A program made the translations under genes and the position numbers. The notes below the pieces were generated by a model. It had not been told where the DNA came from. It made no database searches and saw only the letters and a list, made by a program, of their open reading frames with translations. From a bacterium (GTDB lineage: Bacteria > Armatimonadota > Zipacnadia > Zipacnadales > UBA11051): a stretch of DNA of 64,000 bases. Of this stretch, positions 43,610-63,553 are shown in pieces (position 1 is the first letter of the stretch; the number at the start of each line of letters is the position of its first letter). The stretch spans positions 62,001-126,000 of the forward strand of contig JAJFUB010000085.1 in NCBI GenBank assembly GCA_021372615.1, in the 5' to 3' direction.

Positions 43610-44348
43610 CTATTGTAGTAGCAACAACTCTTAGACGCAACACATCCTCCGGCGTTTCCGGAAGAAAGTGAAGTCTATCATAACCAAGGACGCCTTGGAA
43701 GGCCTGCGCGAACGCGGTCGCCACCTCGGCGACCCCCACCACCAACCCCAGCTCGCGCAACGACACCATGGTGTCCGACGGCAGGCCACACGGGTTGAAG
43801 CCGGCGAACCCGGACATGTCGCAATCCACGTTCAGCGCCAGCCCGTGATACGTCACCCAGCCGCGCACCGCGATCCCGAGGGACGCGATCTTCCGTTCCT
43901 GTACCCAGACGCCTGTATGCCCCGGCCTATTCCCTGCCTCGACCCCAAGCTGCCGGAGCGTCTCGATCCCCGCCGCCTCAAGCTGCCGCAGATACCAGTG
44001 CAGATCCCGCCGCCACTGCCGCAGGTCAACAATGGGGTACGCGACCAGTTGCCCCGGTCCATGGTATGTTGCTTCCCCCCCCCGTGAGGTTTCCACCACA
44101 GGAATACCGTCGCCGTTCGTTGCCGTTCCCCCCTCTCCCGAACGCAGCGAAGCGGAGCGAGGGAGAGGGGCCGGGGGTGAGGCAGACGGGCCGTGCCCTC
44201 TCCCGACCGTGACCACCGCTTCATGCTCCAGCAGCAGCAGCGCATCCGGGATCTCCCCCGCCCGTCGCTGACGCACCAACTCCTCCTGCAGCGCCACCGT
44301 CTCGCCGTACTCCCGCCGCCCTAGCCGCCACACCTGAAGCTCCCTCAC
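43599..44348 (-). CDS. lipB: Octanoyl-ACP:protein octanoyltransferase LipB
   Basis: LipB moves octanoyl from ACP to lipoyl domains of 2-oxoacid dehydrogenases. The 249 residues start at GTG 44348, which overlaps the GT4 stop (GTGA). Landmarks are LLLLEHEAVVTVGRG, RGGEATYHGPGQLVAYP, ERKIASLGIAVRGWVTYHGLALN (catalytic Lys) and FNPCGLPSD (catalytic Cys). Between TVGR and GIPVV lies a stretch of about 30 residues (SPPAPLPRSASLRSGEGG and flanks) encoded by a repeat element; other LipB proteins have a shorter linker there. It is unusual to find lipB inside a glycan cluster. The cluster has E1 genes and an ACP but no visible lipoyl protein. Confidence 0.9.
   Translation of the reverse strand: MRELQVWRLGRREYGETVALQEELVRQRRAGEIPDALLLLEHEAVVTVGRGHGPSASPPAPLPRSASLRSGEGGTATNGDGIPVVETSRGGEATYHGPGQLVAYPIVDLRQWRRDLHWYLRQLEAAGIETLRQLGVEAGNRPGHTGVWVQERKIASLGIAVRGWVTYHGLALNVDCDMSGFAGFNPCGLPSDTMVSLRELGLVVGVAEVATAFAQAFQGVLGYDRLHFLPETPEDVLRLRVVATTIDGR
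44130..44170. repeat. Palindromic element inside lipB
   Basis: Perfect 10-base arms, CCCCTCTCCC (44130-44139) and GGGAGAGGGG (44161-44170), enclose a core GAACGCAGCGAAGCGGAGCG with its own weak symmetry. A third copy of the arm, CCCTCTCCCG, follows at 44196-44205. The stretch is read in frame on the minus strand as a Pro/Ser/Arg-rich loop between two conserved LipB blocks. Confidence 0.75.
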
Positions 44349-45496
44349 GCCTGCACCAGCCCCTCGTACATGCGCACATGCCCCGCGATCATGCGCTCCA
44401 GGCTGTAGTCGCGCTCGACCCGCTCCCGCAAGGCCTCCGCCAGGCGCGGCATCTGCGGGTCGTCCAGCGCCCGGAACAGCGCCAGTGTCAGCTCCAGGTG
44501 GTCGCCCGGCGCTACCAGCAGCCCGGTGCGCTCGTGCTCGATCACGTCCACATTGCCGGGGATGGCCGTCGCGATGACCGGCACGCCGGCCGCTCCGGCC
44601 TCCAGCAGCGCATACGGCAGCCCCTCCCACAGCGAGGGCAGGACGAACACATCCAGCGCGGCCAGGAACTGCGGGACATCATCGCGCTGGCCCAGGAAGT
44701 GGATCGCCTCCGACGCCTGCAGCGACTCGGCCAGCCGCCGCAGTTGCGGCAGCAGCGGGCCATGCCCGGCCACCGCCAGATGCACCCGCGGTCGCTCCCG
44801 ATGCACCGCCGCGGCCGCCCGCACAAGCTGTGCAACGCCCTTCTGCGGCGTCAGCGCGGCGACGGTTCCGACGAGGGTAGCCTCTGTCGGCAGCCCCAGC
44901 GCTCGCCGACACGCTTCCCGATCTGCCGCCACCCGGAACTCGTCCACTCGGATGCCATTGGGAATGATCGCGATGCGCTCGTCAGGCACAACATGGTGCT
45001 GCAGGGCCAGTTGCTTCTGCCCGTCACATCCGGCCACGAGGACATCCGTCCACCGCCCGGCGAGCCGCTCCAGCGCCACATACAGCCCGCGCTTGAGGGC
45101 GGAGGTGCGCATCTGGAAGGCGAAGCCGTGGGGGTTATAGACGGTCCTGGGGCGGGGGCGCAGGCTCCGCACCGCCAGGCGGGCCAGGAAGCCACCCTTG
45201 GAGCTGTGCCCGTGCACGATCTGCGGCTGCCAGGCGGCCATCGCGATCCGCAGTTGCCGCAGGCACCGCCCGTCCGACAGCGGACTGATCTCCCGCCGCA
45301 TGGGCAGATCCATGACCTGGATCCCGGCCGCGTCCAGTGCCTGGACGTCATCCAGAAAGCGCTCATCGCGCAACGTCGAGCACACAACATACTGCTGGAA
45401 GCGGTCGCGGGGGAGGTTCAGGCACAAGTCGAGCAAGTGCCGGCGCGTACCGCCGACCGTGGCTTCAAGCACATGGAGGAGGCGAATGGGGGACAT
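44345..45496 (-). CDS. Glycosyltransferase family 4 (GT-B)
   Basis: Protein of 383 residues. The N-terminal acceptor domain begins RLLHVLEATVGGTRRHLLDL and has QPQIVHGHSSKGGFLARLA. The donor domain has IAIIPNGIRVDEF, VGTVAALTPQKGVAQLVRA, VHLAVAGHGPLLPQL and VLPSLWEGLPYALLEAGAAG, with the paired Glu residues (E-x7-E) that bind the nucleotide sugar. GT4 enzymes are retaining cytoplasmic transferases, here likely adding one sugar to a polyprenyl-linked unit. The gene lies 86 bases after the flippase, across a purine/pyrimidine-biased stretch, and its stop overlaps the lipB start. Confidence 0.88.
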   Translation of the reverse strand: MSPIRLLHVLEATVGGTRRHLLDLCLNLPRDRFQQYVVCSTLRDERFLDDVQALDAAGIQVMDLPMRREISPLSDGRCLRQLRIAMAAWQPQIVHGHSSKGGFLARLAVRSLRPRPRTVYNPHGFAFQMRTSALKRGLYVALERLAGRWTDVLVAGCDGQKQLALQHHVVPDERIAIIPNGIRVDEFRVAADREACRRALGLPTEATLVGTVAALTPQKGVAQLVRAAAAVHRERPRVHLAVAGHGPLLPQLRRLAESLQASEAIHFLGQRDDVPQFLAALDVFVLPSLWEGLPYALLEAGAAGVPVIATAIPGNVDVIEHERTGLLVAPGDHLELTLALFRALDDPQMPRLAEALRERVERDYSLERMIAGHVRMYEGLVQA

Positions 45497-45582: not shown

Positions 45583-47316
45583 TCACTCTTCGTTATTGCC
45601 TTTCCTCAGCCGCTTGCGCACCTTTTCGCGGACGAACCCCGCGACCATGGTCAGTTCCTCGATCTTCAGCAGCGCCGCCGTGACCAGGAAGACGCCGCCA
45701 CCGCCACACCCCACGGCCGCCGCGAGCGCCAGCATGCGCAGCTTCTTGGCGGCAAAGGGCGGCTGCCAGGCGTTCAGCGTCGGGGCCAGGCCGGCGCCGA
45801 TGAAGTAGATGACGCCGCCCATGAGGGCGGCCGCCAGTGCGAGCCTGGCGGCGAAGGACAGGACGGCGCGGCGGTCAATGTGACCGATCTTCCGGCGCAA
45901 CGACCCGTACAGGATGATGACCTTGGCGCTCTTGCTCAGCGTCAGGGCCAGAGCCACGAAGGCGAGCGCCCCGGTGGCGCTAATGGAGCCCTGCGGCCAC
46001 AGCCACATCACGCCCAGGCCGGCGATGATGATGTTCAGCACCGCCATCCCCGCGCCCCAGTAGTTCGGCGTCTTGGTGTCCTGCAGGGCGAAGAACCACT
46101 TCATGATGCTGGTTTCCAGGGCGAAGAACAGCAGCCCCGGAGCATAGCAGAACAGCGCCAGCGCCGACCGCGCCGCATCCTCGGAGGTCATCGCCCCGTG
46201 CTCGTAGACCACGGTGATGATCGGCCGAGCCAGGAACATCATCGCCACGGAGATGGGCACGAAGATGAAGGCCATGATGCGCGTCATGCTGACCAGCGCC
46301 TCGGCCAGCTTGTCCTTCTCGCCGCGCGCGGCCCAGCCCGACAGGAAGGGGTAGACGACGAAGCTGACCGCCAGCGGCAGGATCTGCAGCGCCGAGTCGC
46401 CCATCGTGCGGGCGAACTTGAGGTTGGTGTACATGCTGGGGCCCAGGCGGTCGGTGTACACGCTGTCGGCGTAGTTGCGCGCATAGGCCGCCGCCATCCC
46501 CAGCAGCAACGGCGGCATCAGGCTGAAGACCGTCCGCGTGCTGGCATCCCGCACCGGGCTGGCAATGGCCCGGTAGTTGCGCAGCTTCCCCACCAGGCCG
46601 GGGAGCATCACGAAGAACCGCAGGCAGCCGCCGATGATGGCCCCCAGCGCCGCTGCCAGGATGCCGTGCGAGCCGTGCGGGTCCCAGAGCAGGTACACGC
46701 CCAGCACGATCCCGGCGGCGCTCCCCACGCGCAGCGAGAACTCCGCGAACGCCGGCAGCGTGAAGCGCTTGTAGGCGTGCAGCGTCAACTCCGGCATCAG
46801 CGACAGGGACAGGAAGATGATCGTCGGGGCCATGACCCGGATCATCAGGACGCCCGTGGGGAAGCCGATCGAGTCGGCGGCCATCGTCGGCCAGAGCGTG
46901 CGCAGGATCTGGGGGGCGAAGACCTCCAGCACCACCGTCAGCGCCAGCAGGAGCAGCAACTCCAAGTTGCCCACCGTGCTGGTGAGTTGCCAGGCCTTCG
47001 GCTCCCCCTCCTCCTTCATGTCGCGCACGAACTGCGGCAGGTAGGCCGGACGGATGATCTTCTCCAGGTTCGTGTACGTCCCGTAGATCAGGACATCATA
47101 GACCCGGTAGAAGGCATCGGTGCGCACATCGCTGCCGAAGTACCCGGAGATGAGGATGCTCTTGGCGTAGCCGGCGACCTTTCCCAGGAAGAGGAAGGCC
47201 GAGATGATGATGCCGCCCAGGGCCATGCGCCGCCCCGCCGTGGCATCGTCGGCGGCCTCGCTCTTCGCTTGTTCTTCAGCCGGATCAACCGGCGCCAGAT
47301 CCATTTCGTCATCCAT
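45583..47316 (-). CDS. MurJ/MviN-type lipid-linked glycan flippase
   Basis: Protein of 577 residues of the MOP superfamily with about fourteen membrane segments. Landmarks are ALGGIIISAFLFLGKVAGYAKSILISGYFG near the start, YGTYTNLEKIIRPAYLPQFV, VYPFLSGWAARGEKDKLAEAL (the MurJ-type loop), IITVVYEHGAMTSEDA and FFALQDTKTPNYW. Such proteins move lipid-linked sugars across the inner membrane. Inside this glycosyltransferase cluster it probably exports the polysaccharide unit, in place of a Wzx protein. It could still be the cell's only MurJ, so I give no gene symbol. Confidence 0.85.
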   Translation of the reverse strand: MDDEMDLAPVDPAEEQAKSEAADDATAGRRMALGGIIISAFLFLGKVAGYAKSILISGYFGSDVRTDAFYRVYDVLIYGTYTNLEKIIRPAYLPQFVRDMKEEGEPKAWQLTSTVGNLELLLLLALTVVLEVFAPQILRTLWPTMAADSIGFPTGVLMIRVMAPTIIFLSLSLMPELTLHAYKRFTLPAFAEFSLRVGSAAGIVLGVYLLWDPHGSHGILAAALGAIIGGCLRFFVMLPGLVGKLRNYRAIASPVRDASTRTVFSLMPPLLLGMAAAYARNYADSVYTDRLGPSMYTNLKFARTMGDSALQILPLAVSFVVYPFLSGWAARGEKDKLAEALVSMTRIMAFIFVPISVAMMFLARPIITVVYEHGAMTSEDAARSALALFCYAPGLLFFALETSIMKWFFALQDTKTPNYWGAGMAVLNIIIAGLGVMWLWPQGSISATGALAFVALALTLSKSAKVIILYGSLRRKIGHIDRRAVLSFAARLALAAALMGGVIYFIGAGLAPTLNAWQPPFAAKKLRMLALAAAVGCGGGGVFLVTAALLKIEELTMVAGFVREKVRKRLRKGNNEE

Positions 47317-48841: not shown

Positions 48842-50137
48842 CTACAACTCGATGGAGGCGGGCTCCGCCGGGCTGTCCTGCAAGGGCCAGTCGCGCAGCC
48901 CGAGGTTCTGGGCGAACAGCCGCCCCAACTGCACCGTGTTCTTGTGCAGGTCAAACTCATCCTGCACGAGTCGTCGTGCGTTGGCGATCAGCCTGGCCCG
49001 CAGCTCCCGGTCATCCAGCGCCCGCTCCAGTTGCGCCGCCAGGTCTTGCGGCGACCCCGGCGCCGCCAGCAGCCCCGTCTCCTCGTCGATGATCGCTTCC
49101 GGGATGGCGCTCAGGTTGCTCGCCACGACTGGCACGCCGAAGGCCATGGCCTCCAGGATGACATTGGGCAGGCCGTCGCGGTCGCCATCCTTGGCCACGG
49201 TGCTGGCCAGGCAGAAGGCGTCCGCGCGCCGGTACACGTGAGTCAGTTGCTCCTGGGTCAGATGCCCGGCAAAGACCACCCGGTCGCGCAGGCCCAGGCC
49301 GCCCGCCAGGCGCTCCAACTCATCCCGCATGGGCCCGTCGCCGGCGATGACCAGCTCGAACTGCAGCCCCCGCCCGTTCAGCAGCGCCGCGGCCTGCAGC
49401 AGAAGCGGGAAGCCCTTCTTCTCCACCAGCCGCCCTGCCGACAGGATCATCGGCAGGGGGTAGTCTATGTGCGACTCCTGCACCATCCGCGCCACATCCA
49501 CCCCGTGCCGGACGAGGTGCAGCTTGTCCCCCAGGATTAGTGAGTGGTTGCGCTGCAACCGTTCCATGCCATGGCGCGTGCACACGGTGACGAAGTCGGC
49601 CTCGCGGCACTTGCGCGACAGCAGCACCGTACCGGGGCCGAAGATGTCCTGGGCGTGGCACGAGATGCTATAGCCGCATCCGCATATCTCCATCAGCATC
49701 AGTCCGACGGTGGCCGGGTAGCTGGCGAAGTGCGCGTGGACATGGCGCGCCTCGCGCGGGGAGAGCTGGGAGGCGAAGTGGACGGCCGCTGCGAAGGCCG
49801 AGAGTAGCTCGCGGGCGCACCCCGGGTGGAGGACCACCATGCGCAGCAGGAAGCAAAGCGTCGAGGCCAGGCCGAGCGGCCGCTGGAAGCACGTTCTGAG
49901 CAGTGCGGTCAGCGTGGCGGAAGAGAGCGGGCGAGGGCGGTAGAGGGTGCGGCGCAGGAAGGGCTCGGCCTGGGCGTGGGGCGGGCCCGGAGGGGCGGCC
50001 TGCATGGACAGGGGGATGACCGCAAACCCCATCTCCTCCAGCGCCACCATCTCGCGGAGGATGAAGGTCTCTGACAGCGAGGGGAACTGGCCCAGGACGT
50101 AGACCAGGCGCGCTCGTCCCGAGTCAACTCTGCGCAT
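48842..50137 (-). CDS. GT4 glycosyltransferase, WcaL/AmsK-like
   Basis: Protein of 431 residues starting at ATG 50137, overlapping the previous gene by 14 bases. The N-terminal motif YVLGQFPSLSETFILREMVALE is the hallmark of the WcaL/AmsK branch of colanic-acid and exopolysaccharide transferases. ARHVHAHFASYPATVGLM, ISCHAQDIF, KLHLVRHGVDVARM, ILSAGRLVEKKGFPLLLQA and DGLPNVILEAMAFGVPVVAS complete the GT-B fold. Relatives also occur in exosortase-A exopolysaccharide loci. It probably extends the lipid-linked oligosaccharide in the cytoplasm. Confidence 0.88.
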   Translation of the reverse strand: MRRVDSGRARLVYVLGQFPSLSETFILREMVALEEMGFAVIPLSMQAAPPGPPHAQAEPFLRRTLYRPRPLSSATLTALLRTCFQRPLGLASTLCFLLRMVVLHPGCARELLSAFAAAVHFASQLSPREARHVHAHFASYPATVGLMLMEICGCGYSISCHAQDIFGPGTVLLSRKCREADFVTVCTRHGMERLQRNHSLILGDKLHLVRHGVDVARMVQESHIDYPLPMILSAGRLVEKKGFPLLLQAAALLNGRGLQFELVIAGDGPMRDELERLAGGLGLRDRVVFAGHLTQEQLTHVYRRADAFCLASTVAKDGDRDGLPNVILEAMAFGVPVVASNLSAIPEAIIDEETGLLAAPGSPQDLAAQLERALDDRELRARLIANARRLVQDEFDLHKNTVQLGRLFAQNLGLRDWPLQDSPAEPASIEL

Positions 50138-51233
50138 GGAGAACTTCCTCGTAGAGCGCCACCACGGCCCGGGCATGGCGCTGCCAGGTGAACTGCGCCG
50201 CATGACGCAGGCCGGCCGCACGGAGTTCGGCCAGCCGAGTCCCATTCGACAGCAGGCGCTGCAGGCCCTCCGTCAGCCGCTCCGGCGGCCCCAAGGGCAC
50301 GACCTCCGCCGCCGGCCCCGCGACCTCCGGCAGCGCCCCGCCGTCGGAGACCAGCACCGGCGTGCCGCAGGCCATCGCCTCCAGCGGCGGCAGCCCCATG
50401 CCTTCGTACAGCGACCATTGTACCAGAAGGTCGGCGGCGGTGTATAGCGCAGGCAGGTCCGCGGGCGCCACGTAGCCCAGGGCGGCCACCTTGTCGGTCC
50501 CGGCGCCCTGCCGTTGTGCCGCGGCGACCGCGTCGGCACCCCACGCCGGCCTGCCGGCCACCAGCAGGTGGTGCGGCGCCCGATCCGCCACGCCGGCGAA
50601 GGCCCGGATGACCGCCGGCAGGTTCTTCTTGGGTTCGACATTGCCCACGCACAGGATGAACCGCTCCGGCAGCCCCAGGCGCTCGCGGACTTCAGCCACC
50701 TCGGCGGCGCCGACCGGACGGTACTGCTCGCCGATGCCCAGGGGAATGACCCGCAGCTTCTTTCCCACCTCGGGCGCCAGCTGCCGCACATCCCGTGCCA
50801 CGGTCTCGGTCGGCACGACCACGGCCGTCGCCCGGCGCAGGCTGCGCGGCAGCATCGCCCGGTAGTGCCACACATTGCTGGGCTTGCACAGGTGCGGGAA
50901 CTGCAGGGCGATGACATCATAGACCGTGAGCACCGAGGGCCCGTGCCAGTTCAGCGGCATGATGTAGCCGGGGGCGTGCAGCAGGTCGCAGCGGCTGCGC
51001 AGGTCGTGCGCCAGCCGCGTCTGCTCGTAGGCAATCCGCAGCAACCGCCCGCGCGCCCATCCCGGCGCGGGCAGCGCCGCTACCGGGCTGTGCTCGGCAT
51101 ACTCCCGTCGGCACGCCAGCAGGTATCCATGCTCCGGGGCCACCTGCGGCAGCGCCCCGATCAGCCCCTCGATGGATTGCTCCACCCCGGAGTGGTGCCC
51201 GCCCAGCAGCATGCCGTCGAGACCCACTCTCAT
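50124..51233 (-). CDS. GT4 glycosyltransferase (mannosyltransferase-like)
   Basis: Protein of 369 residues. It begins [19 protein letters not shown], where the conserved glycine loop of this GT4 branch (D-x-R/M-x5-G-I/V) sits. [58 protein letters not shown] and [22 protein letters not shown] follow the MtfA/WbdB-like pattern. The Glu pair in [12 protein letters not shown] binds the donor. The start overlaps the previous GT4 stop by 4 bases and the end overlaps the next start, so the three GT4 genes are translationally chained. Confidence 0.88.
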
Positions 51234-52384
51234 GGCGCGAGCACCTCGCGGTACAGCTCCAGCACGCGCGCGGCCGTGTGGCTGACCGAAAAGTGCCCGG
51301 CGCGGATGCGCGCGCCGTCACTGAGGCCCTCGCGCAGCTCACCGTCCTGCAGCAGGTGCACAATCCCCTCCGCCAGCGCGGCCGGGTCGTCGGGCGGCAC
51401 CAGCAGCCCACTGCGCCCGTCCTCGATGATCTCGGCCGGGCCGGCCTGGTTGACCGCCACCACGGGCACGCCCAGAGCGAGGGCTTCGAGCACCACCCGC
51501 CCGAACGGCTCCCGGTCGGCAGGGTGGGCCAGCACATCCAGGGCCGCCAGTGCGTCGGCCGGGTGGTCCACGAAGCCCGCCCAGACGACATGGCCCTGGA
51601 GCGAGGGCGCGTTCGCCAACTCGTGCAGTGACGCCACGTACTCGGGGTGCTCGTCGAAGGTGTCGCTGCCCATGAAGACGACCCGCGCCTGCGGCACGTG
51701 CTCCAACACCAGCGGCATGGCTCGCAGCAGTACATCCTGCCGCTTCCACGGCACCAACTGGCCCATGCAGCCGATCAGCGGCGTCTCCGCGCCCATCTCC
51801 CAGTCGCCGCGCACCTGGCTGCGCCGCCGTGTGACATGCACATCCTGCGGGCTGAAGCCGTTGGTGATGACCGTCACGGGGGCGCCCTGCGGCGCCGTTG
51901 CTTCGATGTAGGAGGCCACCGCCTGTGAGATGGCAATGACGCGCGTCGCCCGCCGCCGAACCGCCCGCACGAGGTGCGCGGGGGCCCGCAGATCGCGGCA
52001 GTGCCACACGACCGGAGCTCGGGTGACGCGCGTGGACGCCCAGGCGCTGATGAGGCTGTTGGCGTGGATGAGGTCAGGCTCCACCGCGCGGCACGCTCGG
52101 CGCAACGCGCGGCGGAAGCGCCCGAAGGTGCGGAAGGCGGCGACGAAGTCCCAGGGAGTCTGCGGACGGTGCAGGCGGCAGGGCGGGAGGGGATGCACGG
52201 GAATGCCGGCTTGGCGGGCGGCGTCTGCCAGCGGACCGTCATCGGGGGCAGCCAGGTGCGGCTCGATCTGCCGCCGATCCACCGCCTGCAGCAGTCCCAG
52301 TAGACTCCGCTCCGCCCCGCCGAGGACGCCGACGTGGTTGACATACAGGACGCGCAGTGAAGATGCGGCGGGCGCGGGAACCAT
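51230..52384 (-). CDS. GT4 glycosyltransferase
   Basis: Protein of 384 residues. I use ATG 52384, which is just before the domain start LRVLYVNHVGVLGGAERSLLGLL; the open frame continues upstream into the end of the hydrolase gene. EPDLIHANSLISAW, IAISQAVASYIE, VITNGFSPQDVH, LIGCMGQLVPWKRQDVLLRAM and REPFGRVVLEALALGVPVVA mark a GT-B enzyme with the usual E-x7-E donor site. It is the first of three chained GT4 genes and follows the hydrolase pair, as in exosortase-A-type loci. Confidence 0.87.
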   Translation of the reverse strand: MVPAPAASSLRVLYVNHVGVLGGAERSLLGLLQAVDRRQIEPHLAAPDDGPLADAARQAGIPVHPLPPCRLHRPQTPWDFVAAFRTFGRFRRALRRACRAVEPDLIHANSLISAWASTRVTRAPVVWHCRDLRAPAHLVRAVRRRATRVIAISQAVASYIEATAPQGAPVTVITNGFSPQDVHVTRRRSQVRGDWEMGAETPLIGCMGQLVPWKRQDVLLRAMPLVLEHVPQARVVFMGSDTFDEHPEYVASLHELANAPSLQGHVVWAGFVDHPADALAALDVLAHPADREPFGRVVLEALALGVPVVAVNQAGPAEIIEDGRSGLLVPPDDPAALAEGIVHLLQDGELREGLSDGARIRAGHFSVSHTAARVLELYREVLAP

Positions 52385-52410
52385 GGTCACCTGCCACTCG
52401 TGGTTGCTCG

Positions 52411-53253
52411 CTACACCCCCGCCTGCCCCCGCAGCCATGCCAGAGTCCGATCAATGACCTGGTTCTCCCAGGCCAGCGAATAGAAGGCATGGTTGGCGCC
52501 CGGCACGATGAACGAGTCGAACGGCTTGTTGGCGCGGCGACACAGCATCTCGTAGTGCTCGACCGAGGCCACCGTCGTCGGGTCGTTGCCGCCGTAGATG
52601 AACAGACGCTCGCCGCCAAAGCCCATGAAGCGCTCGTACCAGTCAATCTCGGCGTCTACTTCGGCGCCCTCTTCGCCGGCGCCCTTGCCGCCCGACGCCA
52701 GCGCGCGCCGAATCTGCCCGAGTTGCAGCTTCGCCCCCACGAGCTTCTGCCAGGTCTCCTTGCGGAACGCCTTGCGCAGGTACGTCAGCCAGATCTGCCG
52801 CTTCTTGGCGCTGTCGCTCAGCCGGCGGTCACCGGCCACGATGGGCGCCGACCACAGCACCATCGCGCGGATCGCCTCATGCAGCGGCCCGGTTCCCAGC
52901 GCCACCTCACTGCCCGAGCAATCCCCGATCAGCGCCACGCGCTCCAGGCCTGTCTCGGCGAGCAGGAACCGCGTGGCGGCCACCGTATCGGCGATCATCG
53001 TCGTCAGCGTTGTCGCCTGCGTGTCGCCCTCGGAGTCGCCGCGCCCCCGGAAGTCGAAGCGCAGGCTGCAGAACCCCATCCCCTCGGCGCGGCGCGCCGC
53101 CTTGGTGAACATCTGGTGCGGGCCGATGCGGTAGCCCGCCCAACCGTGCAGATAGACTAACCCCAGCGGCAGCTTCGGGAAGCCTTCATCCGGAATGTGC
53201 AGGGCCGCCAGCAGTCGGGCGCCCTCACTCTCGAAGTAGCAGTGTCGTTCCAT
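52411..53253 (-). CDS. Alpha/beta hydrolase resembling exosortase-A-associated hydrolase 1
   Basis: Protein of 280 residues. The fold is clear: GLVYLHGWAGYRIGPHQMF (oxyanion loop), SLRFDFRGRGDSEGDT, the nucleophile elbow IGDCSGSEVAL, then LFIYGGNDP (acid) and VPGANHAFYSLAWE (His). The elbow has Cys112 where most hydrolases have Ser. A G-x-C-x-G elbow is a trait of the hydrolase 1 family of exosortase-A (XrtA) exopolysaccharide loci. Its partner, hydrolase 2, and an ACP lie directly upstream in the same order as in those loci. A thioesterase or acyltransferase role on the ACP-bound group is my inference. Confidence 0.72.
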   Translation of the reverse strand: MERHCYFESEGARLLAALHIPDEGFPKLPLGLVYLHGWAGYRIGPHQMFTKAARRAEGMGFCSLRFDFRGRGDSEGDTQATTLTTMIADTVAATRFLLAETGLERVALIGDCSGSEVALGTGPLHEAIRAMVLWSAPIVAGDRRLSDSAKKRQIWLTYLRKAFRKETWQKLVGAKLQLGQIRRALASGGKGAGEEGAEVDAEIDWYERFMGFGGERLFIYGGNDPTTVASVEHYEMLCRRANKPFDSFIVPGANHAFYSLAWENQVIDRTLAWLRGQAGV

Positions 53254-53303
53254 GGTGTGTGAAGCGGTCTATCCTCGTCGCCCGCAGGGCCTGTGCCCGT
53301 TGT

Positions 53304-53354
53304 CGGAGGGGTCTGTCCCCGGACGGACCGCAGGTCCGGGAGGGGGCTGACCCC
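53304..53354. repeat. Dispersed repeat pieces shared with 10948-10974
   Basis: CGGAGGGGTCTGT (53304-53316) and GAGGGGGCTGACCCC (53340-53354) are the reverse complements of the two parts of the repeat at 10948-10974, in swapped order. Between them is a small hairpin, GGACCGCAGGTCC (53325-53337). The element fills the 121-base gap between the two hydrolase genes. Confidence 0.6.
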
Positions 53355-53374
53355 GCCCGCAGCCCCTACGTCAC

Positions 53375-54202
53375 TCATCCATCCTTTGTCCATCGGGCCT
53401 GTTGCTCGGCGAGCCAGATCTCGGTGGCCTCGACGGTGGGCCCCGCCTCGATCAGGCCGATGCGTGCCCAGAAGGGCTCCTGCCGCACGGCCACGGCGCG
53501 CCCGCCGAGGGCCTCGGCCAGCTCGCGGTAGGCCTCGCCCGGCTGTTCCTTCACGGTGATGTTCACAACCAACGACGGGCCGCTGAAGTCCGGCTCGGCA
53601 CCCAGCAGGTCGAGACTCTCGATCTGCCGCCGCATCTCGGTGGAGATGGGGTAGCCATCGAAGTCGAAGACATCCTGCTCCTGGGCCCGGCGGACGCTGC
53701 CCGCGTCGAACCTCTCTTCATCGGTCAGCATCGCCTTGATCAGCGAGCGGCGCAGGTTCTGGGTGAGGTACTGCTTGCCGCTGATGACCGGCTCCCAGAG
53801 CACCAGGAAGTCCACATTGCCGCCGGCCGCCGCAGCCTGCAGGGCCAGCGCCGCCCCCAGCCGCAGCCCCAGCAGCCCCAGCGCTGACAGGTGCAACTCG
53901 CGCCGCATGTAGTCAGCCGCCGCCAGGATGTCCTCCACCCACTGCTCCGGCGTTGCCTCGCCAAAGTCGCCGGGGCTGTCGCCGGTGCCGCGGTAATCGA
54001 AGCGCCCGCAGGCGATGTCGGCCGCGCAGAACGTCCGTGCGGCCTCGACCAGCACACGATGGGCGCACTTCTTCTCTTCGGCGAAGGGGTCGCAGAACAG
54101 CAGCCCCCAGCGGGGGTGCTGAGCCTCGGTGCACGCGTGCATGACCGCGTGCAGCGACACCGCCCCCGGAATGACCGCGACGGCCTCAGGCGCCTGGACC
54201 AT
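53375..54202 (-). CDS. Alpha/beta hydrolase-fold protein resembling exosortase-A-associated hydrolase 2
   Basis: Protein of 275 residues. LLFCDPFAEEKKCAHRVLVEAARTF and CGRFDYRGTGDSPGDFGEATPEQWVEDILAAADYM match the hydrolase 2 family of exosortase-A loci, including the PFAEE box. The elbow reads GLLGLRLGAALAL, so Arg114 occupies the nucleophile position; the same G-x-R-x-G is a trait of that family. It therefore probably lacks classical esterase activity and may bind the ACP-linked substrate or partner hydrolase 1. It starts only 5 bases after the ACP gene. Confidence 0.72.
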   Translation of the reverse strand: MVQAPEAVAVIPGAVSLHAVMHACTEAQHPRWGLLFCDPFAEEKKCAHRVLVEAARTFCAADIACGRFDYRGTGDSPGDFGEATPEQWVEDILAAADYMRRELHLSALGLLGLRLGAALALQAAAAGGNVDFLVLWEPVISGKQYLTQNLRRSLIKAMLTDEERFDAGSVRRAQEQDVFDFDGYPISTEMRRQIESLDLLGAEPDFSGPSLVVNITVKEQPGEAYRELAEALGGRAVAVRQEPFWARIGLIEAGPTVEATEIWLAEQQARWTKDG

Positions 54203-54207
54203 GCGTG

Positions 54208-54465
54208 TCAGCTCCGCTTCTGGTCAACGAAGGCGGCGATGTTGTCTACCGTCGAGAACGTCTCGGTGCTGAAGTCCGTGTCCTCCAGCGTGATGCCGAA
54301 CTCCTCTTCCAACCCCACGACGATCTCGAACAGATTGACTGAATCGATCTTGTACTCGTCCATGAGATTGGCTGCGTCGGGGATGTCCGCCGGGGCGACG
54401 TTGAGGAACAGTCGCTCGACGATCATGTCCTTGATTTGCTGCTTGAGTTGCTCATCAACCGCCAT
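54208..54465 (-). CDS. Acyl carrier protein
   Basis: Protein of 85 residues, acidic, with a four-helix ACP pattern. The phosphopantetheine site is Ser42 in KIDSVNLFEIVVGLEEEFG, where DSV replaces the more usual DSL, as in specialised ACPs. The N-terminus QQIKDMIVERLFL and the C-terminus FSTVDNIAAFV are normal. It is a dedicated ACP: the glycyl radical enzyme lies upstream and hydrolase 2 follows by 5 bases. Substrates could come from the ketosynthase, FabG and E1 genes upstream in the cluster. It is probably not the housekeeping fatty-acid ACP, which normally lies beside fabF alone. Confidence 0.92.
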   Translation of the reverse strand: MAVDEQLKQQIKDMIVERLFLNVAPADIPDAANLMDEYKIDSVNLFEIVVGLEEEFGITLEDTDFSTETFSTVDNIAAFVDQKRS

Positions 54466-54515: not shown

Positions 54516-56732
54516 TCAGTTCCCGCTCCTGGCCACGATGTGATCCTGTATCTCCCGGCTCAGCGTCGTGAAGTACGCGCTGTAGCCCGACACGCGCACC
54601 GCCAGGTGACTCCATTTCTCCGGCTCCCGCTGCGCCGCCTGCAACTGCTCCGCCCCCACGATGTTGAACTCCAGATGCATCCCGCCGCCCTGGAAGTAGG
54701 TGGTCACCAGATCGGCGAGCAGTTCCGCCTCGCCCCCACGGGGCAGCGCCGTCGGGTGCAGTTCGCAGATCAGCGACGTGCCGGCCGCGGCGCGGGTCTG
54801 GTCAATGTGCGCCGCCGACAGTAGCGCCGCCGCCGGTCCGCTGCGGCCCCGGCCCGGGTGGGGCATGAGGCTATTGGCCAGGTTCTCGCGCGCGTGCCGG
54901 CCATCGGCCGAGGCCGCGCACACCGCCCCGCCGCCGATAGCCTGCGTGAAGGTGAACAGGTGCGCGTGGTAACGCCCGCCACGCGGGTGAGGGAACTGGT
55001 CGAGCAAGTCGCAGAACTCCTCGGCCAGGCCATCGGCGACCCCGTCTACGTCACCCTCGTTGTTGCCGTACTTCGGCGCGCCGTGCAGCAACTGCTGCCG
55101 CAGGTCCTCGTGACCAGCGAAGTCCTCCCGCAGCGCCGTGAGCAGCTCCCCCATCGTCACTGCTTGCTCTTCGAACACCAGCCGCCGGATCGCCACCAGC
55201 GCGTCTGCCACATTCGGGATGCCCATGGCGCAGACGCTCGTCGCGTTGTACCGCGCCCCCCCGGCGGTCATGTCCAGGCCCCGGGCCAGGCACTCGTCGG
55301 TGAACAGCGACAGCATCGGCATCGGGAAGGTGCGCGCGCCGCCGGCCTCGGCCTCCCTCAGCCGCTGCACCGCCCGCGCCAGGTCTGCCTCAAGCTGCGT
55401 GTGGTACGCCCGCTGCAGGTCCGCGAAGGCGAAGCTCTCGGCCGGCCCGGTCTGCGGCCCCACTTGGGCGCCGGTGAGCATGTCCACCCCATCGTTGAGC
55501 GCCAGCTCCAGGCACTTGAGCAGGTTGCAGTAGTACGCCACCGCGCGCGGGTCCATCATCCCGGCGATGGTGACCTCGATGCACCCGATGATCGCGTACT
55601 GCCGCGCGTGCTCCAGGGGAATGCCCTTCTTGACCAGCGCGGGGACGATGGCCTCGTCGTTGAAGAGCTGGGGCTGGTCGAGCCCGTGCGAGATGACCTC
55701 GCAGGCTTGCTCGAGGAAGTCCCGCGGTGTGCCGCGGTGCCACCGGACCGAGGTCTGGCGCGCCAGGTGCAGCTCATCCATCACTTCCAGCACCAGCCGG
55801 CTGACCTCGTTGGCGACATCACGCCCGTCGGCGTCCATCCCGCCGATCATGCCGTTCTGCACATCGTACGACTTGTAGACCTTCAGCCAAAACGCCGTCA
55901 GCAGGTCCTTGGCTTGCTCGCGGTCGAGCCGCCCGGCCGCGACGTCCGCCTCATAGAACGGCCCCAGCAGCACATCCAGTCTCCCCAGCGAGTGCGCGTT
56001 CGGCGGGTCCTCCAGCTCCACAAACAGCAGGCAGAACCACAGGGCTTGCAGGGCCTCGTGGAAGGTCCGCGCCCCCTGGGCCGGGACCCGCGCGCACGCC
56101 TCGGCGATGCGCTCCAGTTCGGCCCGGCGCTCGGGATCGGCCTCTGCCTCCGCCAGCCGCGCGGCCTCCGCGGCGTAGTTGAGACCGTACTGCGCGCAGC
56201 CCTCGGCCAGCGTCGCCATCGCCCGGCGGAAGTCGTCGGCGCTGTAGTCCAGGTTGAAGTACGCGGGCCGCTCCGTGGCCGCCCCCTGCAGGGCCCGGGC
56301 CTCCTCGGCCAGGGCCAGGAAGCCTCGCTGCAGCACGCGCCCATAGCCCGGCACGCAGTGCCCGAACAGCGTCCCTCGCGCCCTGAACTCCGGGTGGGCC
56401 GCCCAGAAGCCGTGCAGCTCGCGCACCACCGCATCGCGCTCGGCGTCGCCGGTCTGAGGTGGTTGCTCGCCCCAGAACTCCGGGTACGACAGCAGGTTCC
56501 AGTTCGAGGTCGCGGCCTGATAGCCGACGATGAGTTCGCCGGGCAGGATGCGTGGCGTGCTCTCGCGCAGCACATGGGCCAGCGCCGCGGCCCGCCGCAC
56601 GACGGTGGGCTCGTCCAGGTGCGCCTGGTAGCCCTCGGTCAGCAGCGTGGCGCGCTCCATGTCGGGCTCGCGCTTGACGGCAGTGGCCTGTTCCCTGAGC
56701 AAGGCCAGACGGGGGGCGGTCAGTACGGTCAT
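54516..56732 (-). CDS. Second glycyl radical enzyme, dehydratase/lyase type
   Basis: Protein of 738 residues from ATG 56732 (AGGG 5 bases upstream), somewhat shorter than the 780-850 usual for the family. The thiyl Cys384 is in IIGCIEVTIAG with Glu386, again the GCxE pattern of dehydratases, decarboxylases and C-C/C-N lyases rather than formate-lyase. The glycyl loop is RVSGYSAYFTTLS with Gly716 near the end. Substrate-pocket residues cannot be assigned by eye. It lies 50 bases upstream of the ACP gene, within the acyl/glycan cluster, where such enzymes are not expected. No activating radical-SAM enzyme is in the window, so one must be supplied in trans. Confidence 0.88.
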   Translation of the reverse strand: MTVLTAPRLALLREQATAVKREPDMERATLLTEGYQAHLDEPTVVRRAAALAHVLRESTPRILPGELIVGYQAATSNWNLLSYPEFWGEQPPQTGDAERDAVVRELHGFWAAHPEFRARGTLFGHCVPGYGRVLQRGFLALAEEARALQGAATERPAYFNLDYSADDFRRAMATLAEGCAQYGLNYAAEAARLAEAEADPERRAELERIAEACARVPAQGARTFHEALQALWFCLLFVELEDPPNAHSLGRLDVLLGPFYEADVAAGRLDREQAKDLLTAFWLKVYKSYDVQNGMIGGMDADGRDVANEVSRLVLEVMDELHLARQTSVRWHRGTPRDFLEQACEVISHGLDQPQLFNDEAIVPALVKKGIPLEHARQYAIIGCIEVTIAGMMDPRAVAYYCNLLKCLELALNDGVDMLTGAQVGPQTGPAESFAFADLQRAYHTQLEADLARAVQRLREAEAGGARTFPMPMLSLFTDECLARGLDMTAGGARYNATSVCAMGIPNVADALVAIRRLVFEEQAVTMGELLTALREDFAGHEDLRQQLLHGAPKYGNNEGDVDGVADGLAEEFCDLLDQFPHPRGGRYHAHLFTFTQAIGGGAVCAASADGRHARENLANSLMPHPGRGRSGPAAALLSAAHIDQTRAAAGTSLICELHPTALPRGGEAELLADLVTTYFQGGGMHLEFNIVGAEQLQAAQREPEKWSHLAVRVSGYSAYFTTLSREIQDHIVARSGN

Positions 56733-56804: not shown

Positions 56805-57518
56805 CTACATCCCCGGTCCCATGTTCGGGCGCCAGACATCCTGGTGTATGAAGCCGGTCTCCGGGTAGTCTTCCCAGAGGGCCTTGACCTGCTTCTCCTT
56901 GCGCTGGTAGTACTCGTCCGGCGTCTCCCCCACCGCCACCTCGATCAGCTTCTTCTCTTTGTTGTAGGCGAGCAGCAGCGTCCCCTTGCGGTAGTACTCA
57001 ACGTACCACGCCTCCATGGCGCGATCGAGCTTGCTCTCGCGGGGGCCACGCAGGCCATCGTGGGATGACTGTGGCTTCCCCAGGGCCGTCTGCACCTGCT
57101 CCGGCGTCATGCCGCTCTGGAGCTGGCTGATCTCCGCCTTCCCCAGCTTCGGTGTGGCCGCAGCCTTGTTCCCGATGAACTTCATCACGCCGAACACCCC
57201 GCCCCCCACCAGGACCACGACGCAGCAGAGCGCGATCACCTTCGCGACCGGGAACGTCTCCAGTTGAGCATCGTTCCGGACGATGGGTTCCGGCCGCGGC
57301 GGCGCCGAGATGGGCGCGGGCGGCCCGATGGGTACGGATGCCGGAGCCGAGCCGGGAGCGGCGTGCGGTGCCGGCGACGCGGGTGGTGCCACGGCGGGAG
57401 CGGAGGGCGGGGCGGCCGGTTTTGCCCCCGGTGGCTGAGACTCGGCCTGCTGTCTGCTGATCCACTCCTGTACGGCGGCTGACGTGGGCTCCTTCGACGG
57501 CTTCACCTTGCGAGCCAT
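56805..57518 (-). CDS. Single-pass membrane protein with BamE/SmpA-like domain
   Basis: Protein of 237 residues. The first 90 are basic, then Pro/Ala-rich and probably unstructured. A hydrophobic segment (VIALCCVVVLVGGGVFGVM) near 93-112 crosses the membrane. The outer part, ISQLQSGMTPEQVQTALGKPQSS...WYVEYYRKGTLLLAYNKEKKLIEVAV, has the SmpA/OmlA/BamE pattern of helix, GMT-x2-QV and beta-sheet. In Proteobacteria this fold helps assemble outer-membrane proteins. Here it has a transmembrane anchor instead of a lipobox, so its role is uncertain. It lies between the GT2 and the second glycyl radical enzyme. Confidence 0.7.
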   Translation of the reverse strand: MARKVKPSKEPTSAAVQEWISRQQAESQPPGAKPAAPPSAPAVAPPASPAPHAAPGSAPASVPIGPPAPISAPPRPEPIVRNDAQLETFPVAKVIALCCVVVLVGGGVFGVMKFIGNKAAATPKLGKAEISQLQSGMTPEQVQTALGKPQSSHDGLRGPRESKLDRAMEAWYVEYYRKGTLLLAYNKEKKLIEVAVGETPDEYYQRKEKQVKALWEDYPETGFIHQDVWRPNMGPGM

Positions 57519-57623: not shown

Positions 57624-58481
57624 TCAAACCATCGGCGGCACGCCTGTCTTCTCCAGAGGCCGCGTCTCCAGCGCCGCCCACCCGCAGTCGCTCTCGTCCG
57701 GGCCGTCTTCCTGCTCGTACACCTCCCGCCAGCGTCGCTTGAATTCCACCCAGTTCCTCATCGTGACATAGCGGAACTTCACATCCGGCGAACCGTCGGT
57801 CGTGACGTTCTCGAAATGATACATTTCTACCGAGGGCTCGACCAGTACCTTCCACCCCGCCTGGCGCGCCCGGTAGCAGAAGTCGAAGTCCTCGAACTGC
57901 GCCGGGTTGAACGCCTCGTCGAGGCCCCCGACCTGCGCGACCACTTCCCGCTTCATCAGCCAGCAGGCACTGATCAGGCACTGGACCTCGGTAGGTTCGT
58001 TCCAGCGCGGAGCGTCAAGCGCGCTGCCGCGCCCTCGGTACTGCACGCGCCCGCCCCGCGAGATGGCCGCCCCGGCGCACTCGACGTCGTATGGCGCGAA
58101 GGGGTACACCAGCTTCGGCCCCACGATCCCGTTCGCCTCCGAGCCCTGCAACACCGCCGCCAGCCCGGCCAGCCAGCTCCGGTGTCGCACGGCGACATCG
58201 TTGTCCATGAAGCCGATCAGGTCGCCGGTCGCGATCTCCAGGCCCTGGTTGCGGGCCGTGCATGCCCCGACATTACCCGTGTTGAGAATGACCTCGAAGC
58301 CCAGCCCCTGCCGGCGCGCCTCGGCCTGCACCTGCGCCAGCATCTCGACACTGCCGTCGTTCGAGCCGTTGTCCACGACGACGATCTGGTCGGGCGGTGG
58401 CGTGCAGTCAAGCTGCCCGCGCAGGCATAGCTCCGTGTACGGACGCTTGTTGTAGCTGACGACGATGAGGGTGGTGCTAAT
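57624..58481 (-). CDS. Glycosyltransferase family 2, apparently with an ATT start codon
   Basis: Protein of 285 residues. The domain begins TLIVVSYNKRPYTELCL, with IVVVDNGSNDGSVEML, GACTARNQGLEIATGDLIGFMDNDV (a DxD variant, DND) and FEDFDFCYRARQAGW (ED box), so it is an inverting GT-A enzyme of the rhamnosyltransferase-like branch. No ATG, GTG or TTG lies in frame at the domain edge. ATT 58481 sits 8 bases after a strong GGAGGT and overlaps the E1-beta stop by one base. The only alternative is GTG 58586, which would overlap E1-beta by about 110 bases and add an Arg-rich tail. Confidence 0.82.
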   Translation of the reverse strand: MSTTLIVVSYNKRPYTELCLRGQLDCTPPPDQIVVVDNGSNDGSVEMLAQVQAEARRQGLGFEVILNTGNVGACTARNQGLEIATGDLIGFMDNDVAVRHRSWLAGLAAVLQGSEANGIVGPKLVYPFAPYDVECAGAAISRGGRVQYRGRGSALDAPRWNEPTEVQCLISACWLMKREVVAQVGGLDEAFNPAQFEDFDFCYRARQAGWKVLVEPSVEMYHFENVTTDGSPDVKFRYVTMRNWVEFKRRWREVYEQEDGPDESDCGWAALETRPLEKTGVPPMV

Positions 58482-59454
58482 ACGCCACCACCTCCGCCGC
58501 CGCCTCGGCGATGGTGCGGTAGTCGGGGATGACGGCCTGCTCGAGCACGCGGGCGGACGGAACCGGCGCGTCGGCCGCCGCCACACGCCGCGGCGGCGCC
58601 TGCAGGAAGTCGAAGCTCGTCTCCATGATGCGCGCCACGACCTCCGCCCCCACCCCGCCGGTCAGTGTCCCCTCCTCGACGACCACTGCCCGCCCCGTCT
58701 TCTCCGCCGTTGCCTGTATGGCGGCCGTGTCCAGCGGCGCCAGGCTGCGCAGGTCGAGGACCTCCGCCTCGACACCAAGCTCGGCCAGTGCCTCCGCCGC
58801 CTTCAGGGCCTCCTCGACCATCCGCGAATAAGCAATCAGGCTGACATCCGTGCCCTCACGCGCCACGCGCGCCTGATCCAGCGGTGTCACATAGTCGCCC
58901 TCGGGGACTTCCCCCTGCCGCCCGTACAGGATCTTGCTCTCGATGAAGATGACGGGATCATCGCAGCGGATGGCGCTCTTGAGCATCCCCTTGGCATCGG
59001 CCGCCGTGGCCGGGGCGACGACCCGCAGGCCCGGCGTAGCGACGAAGAACCGCTCCAGACTCTGCGAGTGGGTCGGCCCATAGCCCCGCCCCGCGCCGGC
59101 CGGGCAGCGCACCACGATCGGCACGCGGCACTGCTCGCCGAACTGGTAGCGGAACTTGGCGGCATGGTTGACGAGCTGGTCCACCGCCAGGGTGATGAAG
59201 TCCATGAACATGATCTCGGCCACGGGCCGCAGGCCGGCCATGGCCGCGCCGATGGCCACGCCCACGAAGCCCCCCTCGGCGATGGGCGTGTTGAGCACGC
59301 GCTCGCGTCCGAACCGTTCGGCAATCCCGGCGGTCAGCTTGAACGCGCCGCCGTACGCGGCGATGTCCTCGCCGATCAGGATGACGCTCTCATCGCGCTC
59401 CATCTCCTCTTCGAGCGCGGCGCGTATGGCGTGGGAGTAGTACATGGGGTTCAC
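58477..59454 (-). CDS. 2-oxoacid dehydrogenase E1 component, beta subunit
   Basis: Protein of 325 residues like PdhB/AcoB. Landmarks are the Glu that activates thiamine diphosphate in LIGEDIAAYGGAFKLTAG, NTPIAEGGFVGVAIGAAMAGLRPVAEIMFMDF, AGAGRGYGPTHSQSLERFF, and the C-terminal transketolase domain (DVSLIAYSRMVEEALKAAEAL, VLDLRSLAPLDTAAI, VVVEEGTLTGGVGAE). With E1-alpha it would decarboxylate a 2-oxoacid and pass the acyl group on. No E2 or E3 gene is here. Its start overlaps the HEAT/proline-rich gene (ATGA), so the two are translated together. Confidence 0.92.
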   Translation of the reverse strand: MNPMYYSHAIRAALEEEMERDESVILIGEDIAAYGGAFKLTAGIAERFGRERVLNTPIAEGGFVGVAIGAAMAGLRPVAEIMFMDFITLAVDQLVNHAAKFRYQFGEQCRVPIVVRCPAGAGRGYGPTHSQSLERFFVATPGLRVVAPATAADAKGMLKSAIRCDDPVIFIESKILYGRQGEVPEGDYVTPLDQARVAREGTDVSLIAYSRMVEEALKAAEALAELGVEAEVLDLRSLAPLDTAAIQATAEKTGRAVVVEEGTLTGGVGAEVVARIMETSFDFLQAPPRRVAAADAPVPSARVLEQAVIPDYRTIAEAAAEVVAY

Positions 59455-60275
59455 GGCTCAGGGCTCAGGGTCTCGGACCAGGATCCTCCGGCCGGTGGGA
59501 TGGGCGCCAGGTCCGGCAGCGGCGGCCGCCCCTCGGCAATGGGCCCCAGCGCCGGCAGATCGGGCACGGTCGCGGCCATGCTCGCCGGCAGTGGCAGCAT
59601 CCCGCCCATGACCTGCCGTTCGGTCAGCTCAGGCGCGTGTGCGGTGGCTGCGCGCTGCTCCTGCACCGGCGCCGTGCTCGTGACGTTCCCGCTCATCTCG
59701 GTCGGGGCGGGCGCCGGCGCGGGCCTGGGCGCCGGCCTGGGGGCGGGCGGCGGCGGTGCAGCTCGGCCCCGCTGCGGCGTCGGCGCTCGAACAGGCGCTG
59801 CCGTCGGCACGGGCGGCGGGGGCGGAGGAGGGGGCGGCGGCGCCGGTGGCCATGCGGTCGGCCCAATGGGAGGCGGGACATACGGCGGGCGCGGGCGCAA
59901 CGGCACGGCGGCAACAGGCGGGGGCGGTGGGGGCGGCGCCGGTGGCTGGTGGCTGCTCGCGCGCACACTTCCCCCGGCTGCCGTTCGGCCTCCCGGCCCT
60001 GTGCGTTGCTCAATGCGGCGCAGCGCCTCCTCGGCCGCGCGCCGGATCGTCACATCGCCGTGTGACAGCAGGGGCTCGATCGCCTCGATGGCGTCGGCTT
60101 GACCGACGCGCGCCAGTTCCTGCAGCGCCCCCCACACGATCGTCGGGTTGTCGTGACCCAGCATCTGCACCAGCAGGCCGGCCCGGGCCTCGTCGGGCGC
60201 GGCGCTGGCGACCACCGCCACGACGTCACCCAGCAAGCTGGCCAGACCCCGCCTCGGTTGGGACTGACTGTCCAT
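59451..60275 (-). CDS. HEAT-repeat protein with long Pro/Ala-rich tail, between E1-alpha and E1-beta
   Basis: Protein of 274 residues from ATG 60275 (TTG 60293 is an alternative). Residues 10-95 form two to three HEAT/PBS-like helix pairs (ARAGLLVQMLGHDNPTIVWGALQELARVG and AIEPLLSHGDVTIRRAAEEALRRI). Residues 100-195 are Pro/Ala/Arg-rich with runs of up to eleven prolines. The tail (195-274) has ELTERQVMGGMLPLPASM and ends LSPEP. It lies exactly between the two E1 subunit genes and overlaps E1-beta. Pro/Ala linkers join the domains of E2 proteins, but no lipoyl motif (DKA) or E2 catalytic domain is present. A scaffold for the E1 complex is a guess. Confidence 0.75.
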   Translation of the reverse strand: MDSQSQPRRGLASLLGDVVAVVASAAPDEARAGLLVQMLGHDNPTIVWGALQELARVGQADAIEAIEPLLSHGDVTIRRAAEEALRRIEQRTGPGGRTAAGGSVRASSHQPPAPPPPPPPVAAVPLRPRPPYVPPPIGPTAWPPAPPPPPPPPPPVPTAAPVRAPTPQRGRAAPPPPAPRPAPRPAPAPAPTEMSGNVTSTAPVQEQRAATAHAPELTERQVMGGMLPLPASMAATVPDLPALGPIAEGRPPLPDLAPIPPAGGSWSETLSPEP

Positions 60276-60289
60276 GGGGCTCACCCCGC

Positions 60290-61264
60290 TCAACTGCCTG
60301 TCAGGCCGGCGAACACGCCCTGCGCGGCGGTCGTCGGATCGGGATCGGGACTCGAGCGGGCGAACTCGGCCGCCGCCTCCAGGCCGCTCTCGACCTCGGC
60401 CGCAATCTCCTGGACCCGCGCCTCATCCAGCAACCCCTGCTGCTCCAGCGCCTGCCGCATCAGTCGCAGTGGGTCGCGCTCCTGCCAGTGGGCCAGTTCG
60501 TCCACCGGGCAGTACTCGCGCCTGTCACTCTTGGAGTGTCCGCAGCACCGGTAAGTCTTGGCCTCGATGAGCGTCGGCCCGGCCCCGGCACGCGCCCGGG
60601 CCACAGCGGCGGCCGCCGCCTCCCGCACGGCGAAGTAGTCGTTGCCGTCTACGCTCACGCCCGGGATGCCATAGGCCACCGCACGCTCTGCGAGATCGCC
60701 GACCCGGAACGCCTCGGCTGTGGGCGTACTCATCGCGTAGGCGTTGTTCTCCAGGAGGTACACGATGGGCAGGTCCCAGATGGCGCCCATGTTGACCGCT
60801 TCGTGGAAGGCCCCGGTCCCGGAGGCGCCGTCGCTGAAAAAGCACAGTACGACCCGGCCGGTCCCCAGGCGCTTCTGAGCCAGCGCCGCGCCGGTGGCGA
60901 TGGGGATCATGCCCCCGGTGATGCCGTTGGAGCCCAGGAAGCCAAGGCTGAAGTCGGCCATGTGCTGCGACCCGCCGCGTCCGCCCGAGTAGCCCGTGGC
61001 CTTGCCGGACAGCTCGGCCAGCAGCCGCCCCGGGTCTGCCCCCTTGGCCAGGAAGTGGCCATGGCCGCGGTGATTGGAGGTCACGAGGTCATCGGGCTGC
61101 AGGGCCGCGACCGCCCCGACGGCACAGGCTTCCTGCCCCACGCAGAAGTGCGAGGTGCCGGTGATGACGCCCTCGCTGAACAGGTCCGCCAGCCGCTCCT
61201 CGAAGCGGCGGATGAGCAGCATCAGCCGGTAGTGGGCCACGGCTTCCTGGGGGGGAATGCTCAC
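60290..61264 (-). CDS. 2-oxoacid dehydrogenase E1 component, alpha subunit
   Basis: Protein of 324 residues like PdhA/AcoA. GTG 61264 overlaps the ketosynthase stop (GTGA) and is followed by the usual YRLMLLIRRFEERL; the longer open frame is non-coding. TSHFCVGQEACAVG, SNHRGHGHFLAKG, GRGGSQHM, the thiamine diphosphate motif SDGASGTGAFHEAVNMGAIW...ENN and YRCCGHSKSD are all present. The phosphorylation-loop region is of the short acetoin-dehydrogenase type. It should form an alpha2beta2 enzyme with the E1-beta gene two positions downstream. Confidence 0.92.
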   Translation of the reverse strand: MSIPPQEAVAHYRLMLLIRRFEERLADLFSEGVITGTSHFCVGQEACAVGAVAALQPDDLVTSNHRGHGHFLAKGADPGRLLAELSGKATGYSGGRGGSQHMADFSLGFLGSNGITGGMIPIATGAALAQKRLGTGRVVLCFFSDGASGTGAFHEAVNMGAIWDLPIVYLLENNAYAMSTPTAEAFRVGDLAERAVAYGIPGVSVDGNDYFAVREAAAAAVARARAGAGPTLIEAKTYRCCGHSKSDRREYCPVDELAHWQERDPLRLMRQALEQQGLLDEARVQEIAAEVESGLEAAAEFARSSPDPDPTTAAQGVFAGLTGS

Positions 61265-63531: not shown

Positions 63532-63553
63532 GTCCATGCCTTACAAGAACAGA

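Follow-up and report, generated by a model that had tools for sequence, protein, structure and literature searches.

A conserved acyl carrier protein and Cys/Arg hydrolase pair in a putative surface-glycan operon of Armatimonadota

Two alpha/beta hydrolases related to those of XrtA exosortase loci lie next to an acyl carrier protein (ACP) in an Armatimonadota-type bacterium; the names attached to its closest relatives are Zipacnadia, WS1 and Armatimonadetes. Do these three genes serve protein sorting, or do they belong to an acyl and glycan chemistry that works without it? A sequence-only reading had proposed the latter. We analyzed the 64-kb stretch of DNA that holds the trio (the window, part of contig C85 of a 6.4-Mb draft genome of 171 contigs) together with related loci. 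The picture that emerges is of a conserved gene set in little-known bacterial groups, which probably assembles a small acyl group on the ACP for transfer to a sugar polymer of the cell surface.

The hydrolase pair and its carrier protein

Three minus-strand open reading frames were found at 52411-54465 as the sequence-only reading had described them, with the transcription order ACP, hydrolase 2, hydrolase 1. The ACP (54208-54465, 85 aa, PF00550) carries Ser42 in a D-S-V motif, and this serine is conserved among the homologues. Hydrolase 1 (52411-53253, 280 aa) is an alpha/beta hydrolase with a Cys112-Asp224-His255 triad, while hydrolase 2 (53375-54202, 275 aa) is a pseudo-hydrolase whose nucleophile elbow holds Arg114. 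Both elbows are indeed aberrant, as had been noticed: G110-D-C112-S-G114 (GDCSG) in hydrolase 1 fits G-x-C-x-G, and G112-L-R114-L-G116 (GLRLG) in hydrolase 2 fits G-x-R-x-G.

Conservation was evaluated on 86 distinct hydrolase 1 and 82 distinct hydrolase 2 homologues, most of them encoded by neighbouring genes or fused. Cys112 was invariant (86/86), and so was Arg114 (82/82), none of the hydrolase 2 homologues having Ser, Cys or Asp at the elbow; Glu43 of hydrolase 2 was kept in 80 of the 82. The two hydrolases were fused in 11 proteins, in the order hydrolase 2 then hydrolase 1 (one natural fusion measures 588 aa), and these fusions show, at the level of sequence, that the pair forms one unit. 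With most homologues adjacent or fused, and with an ACP gene in 41 of the 72 related loci, the arrangement of the trio is not due to chance.

TIGR03100 and TIGR03101 were the best NCBIfam models for hydrolases 1 and 2, respectively, which bears out the proposed kinship to the XrtA hydrolases. The scores fell below the curated cutoffs in both cases: 105.4 bits over the length of hydrolase 1 (104.9 bits in the genome-wide search) against 168.45 for TIGR03100, and 115.7 bits against 202.75 for TIGR03101. Thus, full membership, for which the sequence-only reading had suggested these models as a check, is ruled out, and the two proteins are best classified as sister families of the XrtA-model hydrolases. 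TIGR03101 reached its cutoff in none of 201 Armatimonadota genomes.

The AlphaFold model of hydrolase 1 alone had a pLDDT of 92.9. Its nearest folds were feruloyl esterases and the TTL lipase (Z about 27-28), the fold searches showing, among the families listed, only the general esterase fold. For one fused hydrolase protein, the predicted model gave a pTM of 0.89 across both domains, and their mutual placement is therefore confidently predicted.

The pair also occurs with no ACP nearby, in Planctomycetota (L121), in Armatimonadota (L119) and in many Lentisphaerota; it is therefore not tied to the ACP, and its chemistry may be broader. In the Lentisphaerota loci (L122-L139), a third alpha/beta hydrolase, of DLH/S9-like type, lies between the homologues of hydrolases 2 and 1; an example of this three-hydrolase set is found in the cultured Oligosphaera ethanolica (L134:7799-10954), which carries the pair and not the full operon. 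A plasmid search returned only distant matches, most of them partial.

The operon around the trio

Several of the minus-strand genes that precede the trio would supply an acyl group. The first gene of the operon encodes a mini-E2 of 164 aa (L012:539-1033, beyond the window) with a lipoyl and an E3-binding domain (PF00364, PF02817) and a DKA lipoylation motif, and with no E2 core. It is followed by a FabG-type ketoreductase (63600-64000, TIGR01830), which runs on past the window end and was joined with L012:1-346. Then comes a ketosynthase (KS) fused to a degenerate KS partner (61261-63537, 758 aa; Cys191, His324 and His361; fabF, 473 bits). The partner, of about 320 aa, lacks the HGTGT part, and relatives have two separate KS genes. 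Next are E1alpha (60290-61264, PF00676; TIGR03182 340 bits, below the cutoff of 394) and E1beta (58477-59454, PF02779/PF02780; PRK09212 373 bits, above the cutoff of 321), both of the 2-oxo acid dehydrogenase type. Between the two E1 genes lies that of a HEAT-repeat protein with a Pro-rich stretch (59451-60293, PF13646). A GT2 glycosyltransferase (57624-58478, start approximate, PF00535), conserved beside the ACP, a membrane protein with a weak BamE-like match (56805-57518; PF04355 20.8 bits, below cutoff) and a PFL-like glycyl radical enzyme (54516-56732; PF02901/PF01228, GCIE and RVSGY motifs) lead to the ACP gene.

Downstream of the trio, most annotated genes belong to glycan assembly. Hydrolase 1 is followed by three GT4 glycosyltransferases (PF00534; a, 51230-52438, in conserved order; b, 50124-51233; c, 48842-50137), an unknown protein, a MurJ-family flippase (45583-47316, PF03023 204 bits, conserved downstream) and a fourth GT4 (d, 44345-45496, PF00534). 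These precede the octanoyltransferase LipB of lipoate synthesis (43599-44390; TIGR00214 156 bits, above cutoff; with an in-frame insert), a second unknown protein and a Wzy/O-antigen-ligase-like membrane protein (41508-42833; PF04932 34.9 bits, above cutoff). Overlaps of four bases were seen between E1alpha and KS (61261-61264), HEAT and E1alpha (60290-60293), E1beta and HEAT (59451-59454) and GT4b and GT4a (51230-51233), as in a co-translated operon.

Two of these genes carry in-frame inserts. The ketosynthase is split by a strongly palindromic repeat some 30 codons long (63025-63183, minus strand), which is absent from 11 related KS; parts of it match 58 places in the genome, as if a palindromic repeat were spreading into coding regions. 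The insert of LipB (44076-44210, minus strand) contains inverted-repeat sequence and exceeds the length seen in most relatives, one of which (L101) carries a different insert of its own at this site.

The gene order lip-FabG-KS-KS'-E1a-E1b-GT2-ACP-hydr2-hydr1-GT4 is kept in other Armatimonadota (L055/L093 and L056/L096). Furthermore, all genes from lip through hydr1 were found in two Verrucomicrobiota loci (L102, L114) and in Lentisphaerota (L112/L113). Gene content thus shows the trio as part of a larger conserved operon common to the three phyla. The sequence-only reading had recognized the acyl and glycan setting, which stands, and had missed this larger operon with its E1, lipoyl, KS and FabG genes. 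Among the 72 related loci, many on contigs that end early, GT2 was present in 34 and E1beta in 29. The glycyl radical enzyme was absent from all 72, and its gene, like the HEAT and BamE-like genes, looks like an insertion peculiar to this genome. The window encodes a second PFL-like glycyl radical enzyme at 6447-8618.

GT4a-c and MurJ follow the hydrolase pair in most ACP-bearing loci, across phyla. This bears on the possibility that the pair is a thioesterase or esterase which releases or edits the ACP-bound acyl group, the product being a free acid, a small lipid or a secondary metabolite, and the glycan genes either mere neighbours or makers of a glycolipid headgroup. The feruloyl esterase and lipase folds, the pairs with no ACP and the matches of ACP and KS to the type II PKS-like AmcB and AmcF of cispentacin (PMC10698177) all agree with such a role. 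The linkage to GT4a-c and MurJ is, however, tighter than expected of chance neighbours, and no counterparts of AmcH, AmcC and AmcE were noticed; we thus consider this explanation rather unlikely, though it is the strongest of the alternatives.

The genome encodes three other E1beta homologues (48-51% identity), which makes a housekeeping pyruvate dehydrogenase an unlikely role for the operon pair. Since the only PF00198 acyltransferase core found in the genome lies on a different contig, PF00198 being lacking in the mini-E2, and since other E1beta copies exist, the operon E1 looks dedicated. To what it is dedicated could be read in another way. Pyruvate dehydrogenase-like E1 pairs have been described for the sugar branches of avilamycin and proposed for those of paulomycin (PMC4425429), and in a glycan operon E1alpha/E1beta might likewise attach a two-carbon branch to one of the keto-sugars of the glycan, as has been proposed for AviB1/AviB2 and Pau11/Pau12, leaving the ACP part as a separate acylation module. 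The dedicated lipoyl/E3-binding protein that heads the operon and LipB downstream fit lipoate-borne acyl transfer instead, and sugar branching is accordingly improbable.

Relation to the exosortase

As had been stated, no exosortase is encoded in the window. The genome-wide search that the sequence-only reading had recommended did reveal an XrtA exosortase on contig C132 (TIGR03109 212.6 bits, cutoff 208) as well as PEP-CTERM proteins, eight in all, encoded on other contigs, so that an organism devoid of exosortase is ruled out. On C132 (L003), XrtA adjoins a polyprenyl glycosylphosphotransferase and an EpsI-like protein, which together form a separate exosortase locus.

We then considered whether exosortase and module are linked elsewhere. 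None of the 72 related loci had an exosortase within 10 kb of the module. Hydrolase 1 homologues were found in 45 of 61 genomes; scored by strong hydrolase 1 matches, 34 of the 61 had both this match and an exosortase, 8 hydrolase 1 only, 18 an exosortase only and one neither, and hence no positive co-occurrence (Fisher p=0.25). Genomes with the module only include drafts of 98, 96, 96, 93 and 93% completeness. Taken together, the lack of linkage, the lack of positive co-occurrence and the near-complete module-only genomes make independence from the exosortase the preferable interpretation, as far as the completeness of the draft genomes allows, and here the sequence-only proposal held up.

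The same-class genome G041 provided a direct comparison, because it carries the E1-type operon on one contig and an XrtA-type locus on another. The latter encodes a tyrosine kinase, hydrolase 2, hydrolase 1, ACP, a ligase resembling TIGR03098 (473 bits against a cutoff of 592), a decarboxylase resembling TIGR03099 (390 bits against 478) and an amidotransferase of the XrtA type; past more glycan genes, at a distance of about 50 kb on this contig, lie a glycosylphosphotransferase and the exosortase. Its hydrolases have the same Cys and Arg, and in the compared set these elbows are common to the window pair, its homologues and the XrtA-type locus L180. The hydrolase pair and the ACP are thus the constant part, and the loading enzymes vary between ligase/decarboxylase and E1/lipoyl/KS/FabG.

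The XrtA exopolysaccharide loci (TIGR03100, TIGR03101, TIGR03098, TIGR03099) resemble the present one in placing an ACP and Cys-type and Arg-type alpha/beta hydrolases inside a glycan locus. They differ in that E1, lipoyl protein, KS and FabG here appear to replace the AMP ligase and the PLP decarboxylase: no TIGR03098 ligase adjoins the trio (the best match in the genome, 264 bits for a cutoff of 592, is on contig C102), and TIGR03099 had no match among the operon proteins scanned. Further differences are the sub-cutoff scores, the unlinked exosortase and the gene order; the sequence-only reading was right on the order ACP, hydrolase 2, hydrolase 1 in the window, but this order sets the locus apart from XrtA loci rather than matching them. 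The gene set is a cousin of the exosortase-adjacent set. Could it still be a diverged XrtA exopolysaccharide module in the service of the exosortase on C132? The XrtA and eight PEP-CTERM proteins of the genome, the best matches to TIGR03100 and TIGR03101 and the Cys/Arg pair of the relative's XrtA-type locus point that way; the 0/72 linkage, the distribution in the 61 genomes, the module-only genomes at 93-98% completeness and the presence of both versions in G041 argue against it, and we regard it as the least probable of the explanations considered.

The same Cys/Arg pair behind a different acyl-loading set and unlinked to an exosortase suggests a role in acyl-ACP or glycan chemistry, and not in protein sorting. 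A literature search yielded no paper in which the "exosortase-associated hydrolases" are given a role, and Haft 2006 does not use the term "hydrolase".

A possible acyl line and its known counterparts

Gene content and order, conservation, the catalytic residues, which hydrolase 2 lacks, and the missing link to an exosortase are visible in the sequences compared; the chemical steps, substrate and acceptor that follow are inferred. E1alpha/E1beta would acylate the lipoyl group of the mini-E2, either by decarboxylating a 2-oxo acid or with a C2 unit drawn from a ketose phosphate. From there the acyl group would move onto the ACP or the KS cysteine; since the lipoyl protein has no acyltransferase core, this transfer would be made by another protein, perhaps KS. 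KS and its degenerate partner would add one or more malonyl units and FabG would reduce the product, which, the operon containing KS and FabG and no dehydratase, is expected to be a short 3-hydroxyacyl-ACP. Cys112 of hydrolase 1 would take over the acyl group, and hydrolase 1, together with hydrolase 2 as the non-catalytic Arg114 subunit, would hand it on to a glycan precursor, at either a hydroxyl or an amino group. Finally, the GT4s, the flippase and the Wzy-like protein would build and export the glycan.

A Cys nucleophile in an alpha/beta hydrolase fold can form an acyl thioester, as in dienelactone hydrolases and PHA synthases, and the downstream glycan genes favour a sugar over water as the putative acceptor. 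The recurrence of the ACP and hydrolase core behind a different loading set in G041 is what one would expect of a pair that works downstream of loading. Against the proposed line, the nearest solved folds are Ser esterases, and a Cys in this fold may simply hydrolyse. The pairs with no ACP and the variable neighbourhood of the trio also speak against it: one locus (L103) has ACP and hydrolases with KS/FabG and no E1 in the DNA read, four (L063, L106, L107, L175) have neither KS nor E1 in the DNA read, and several close relatives lack E1a, KS, FabG and lip beside the trio within the DNA read. We put at roughly 45% the probability that the trio offloads the product of a conserved acyl-ACP line within a MurJ flippase/Wzy-type surface-glycan operon. 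More tentatively, the E1 pair and the core-less lipoyl carrier may prime a type II KS line, with the Cys hydrolase and the Arg pseudo-hydrolase as a two-subunit acyltransferase from ACP to surface glycan, a previously undescribed pathway of Armatimonadota, Verrucomicrobiota and Lentisphaerota. The role of the pair becomes testable with few soluble proteins, and the core-less lipoyl protein raises the question of what carries the acyl group from lipoate to ACP.

The loading part of the proposed line has known counterparts. QncN/QncL/QncM, and SclQ1-4 by homology, load a free ACP with a C2 unit by means of E1 enzymes and a lipoyl domain (PMC6335953), and share with the present operon E1alpha, E1beta, the lipoyl domain and a free-standing ACP. 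QncL and SclQ4 carry an acyltransferase core, in contrast to the mini-E2, which has no PF00198, and the operon adds the KS pair, FabG and two hydrolases; it may work like these systems and does not belong to them. The cispentacin set AmcB/AmcF/AmcG (PMC10698177) provides the best ACP model (AmcB, 62 bits for a cutoff of 80) and likewise combines a KS (AmcF, 264 bits for a cutoff of 325) with a degenerate partner. There the AMP ligase AmcH loads, where E1 and the lipoyl protein would do so here. With both cutoffs unmet and no match to AmcG or AmcH among the window proteins scanned (one relative had a marginal AmcG match of 18.6 bits), the cispentacin pathway itself is ruled out. For the hydrolases, GrgF, which couples two polyketide chains (PMC8902786), and DcsB are alpha/beta hydrolases of polyketide pathways with the same fold (Z about 25-26); they differ in sequence (15-16% identity) and are single enzymes, whereas hydrolase 1 is accompanied by a pseudo-hydrolase partner.
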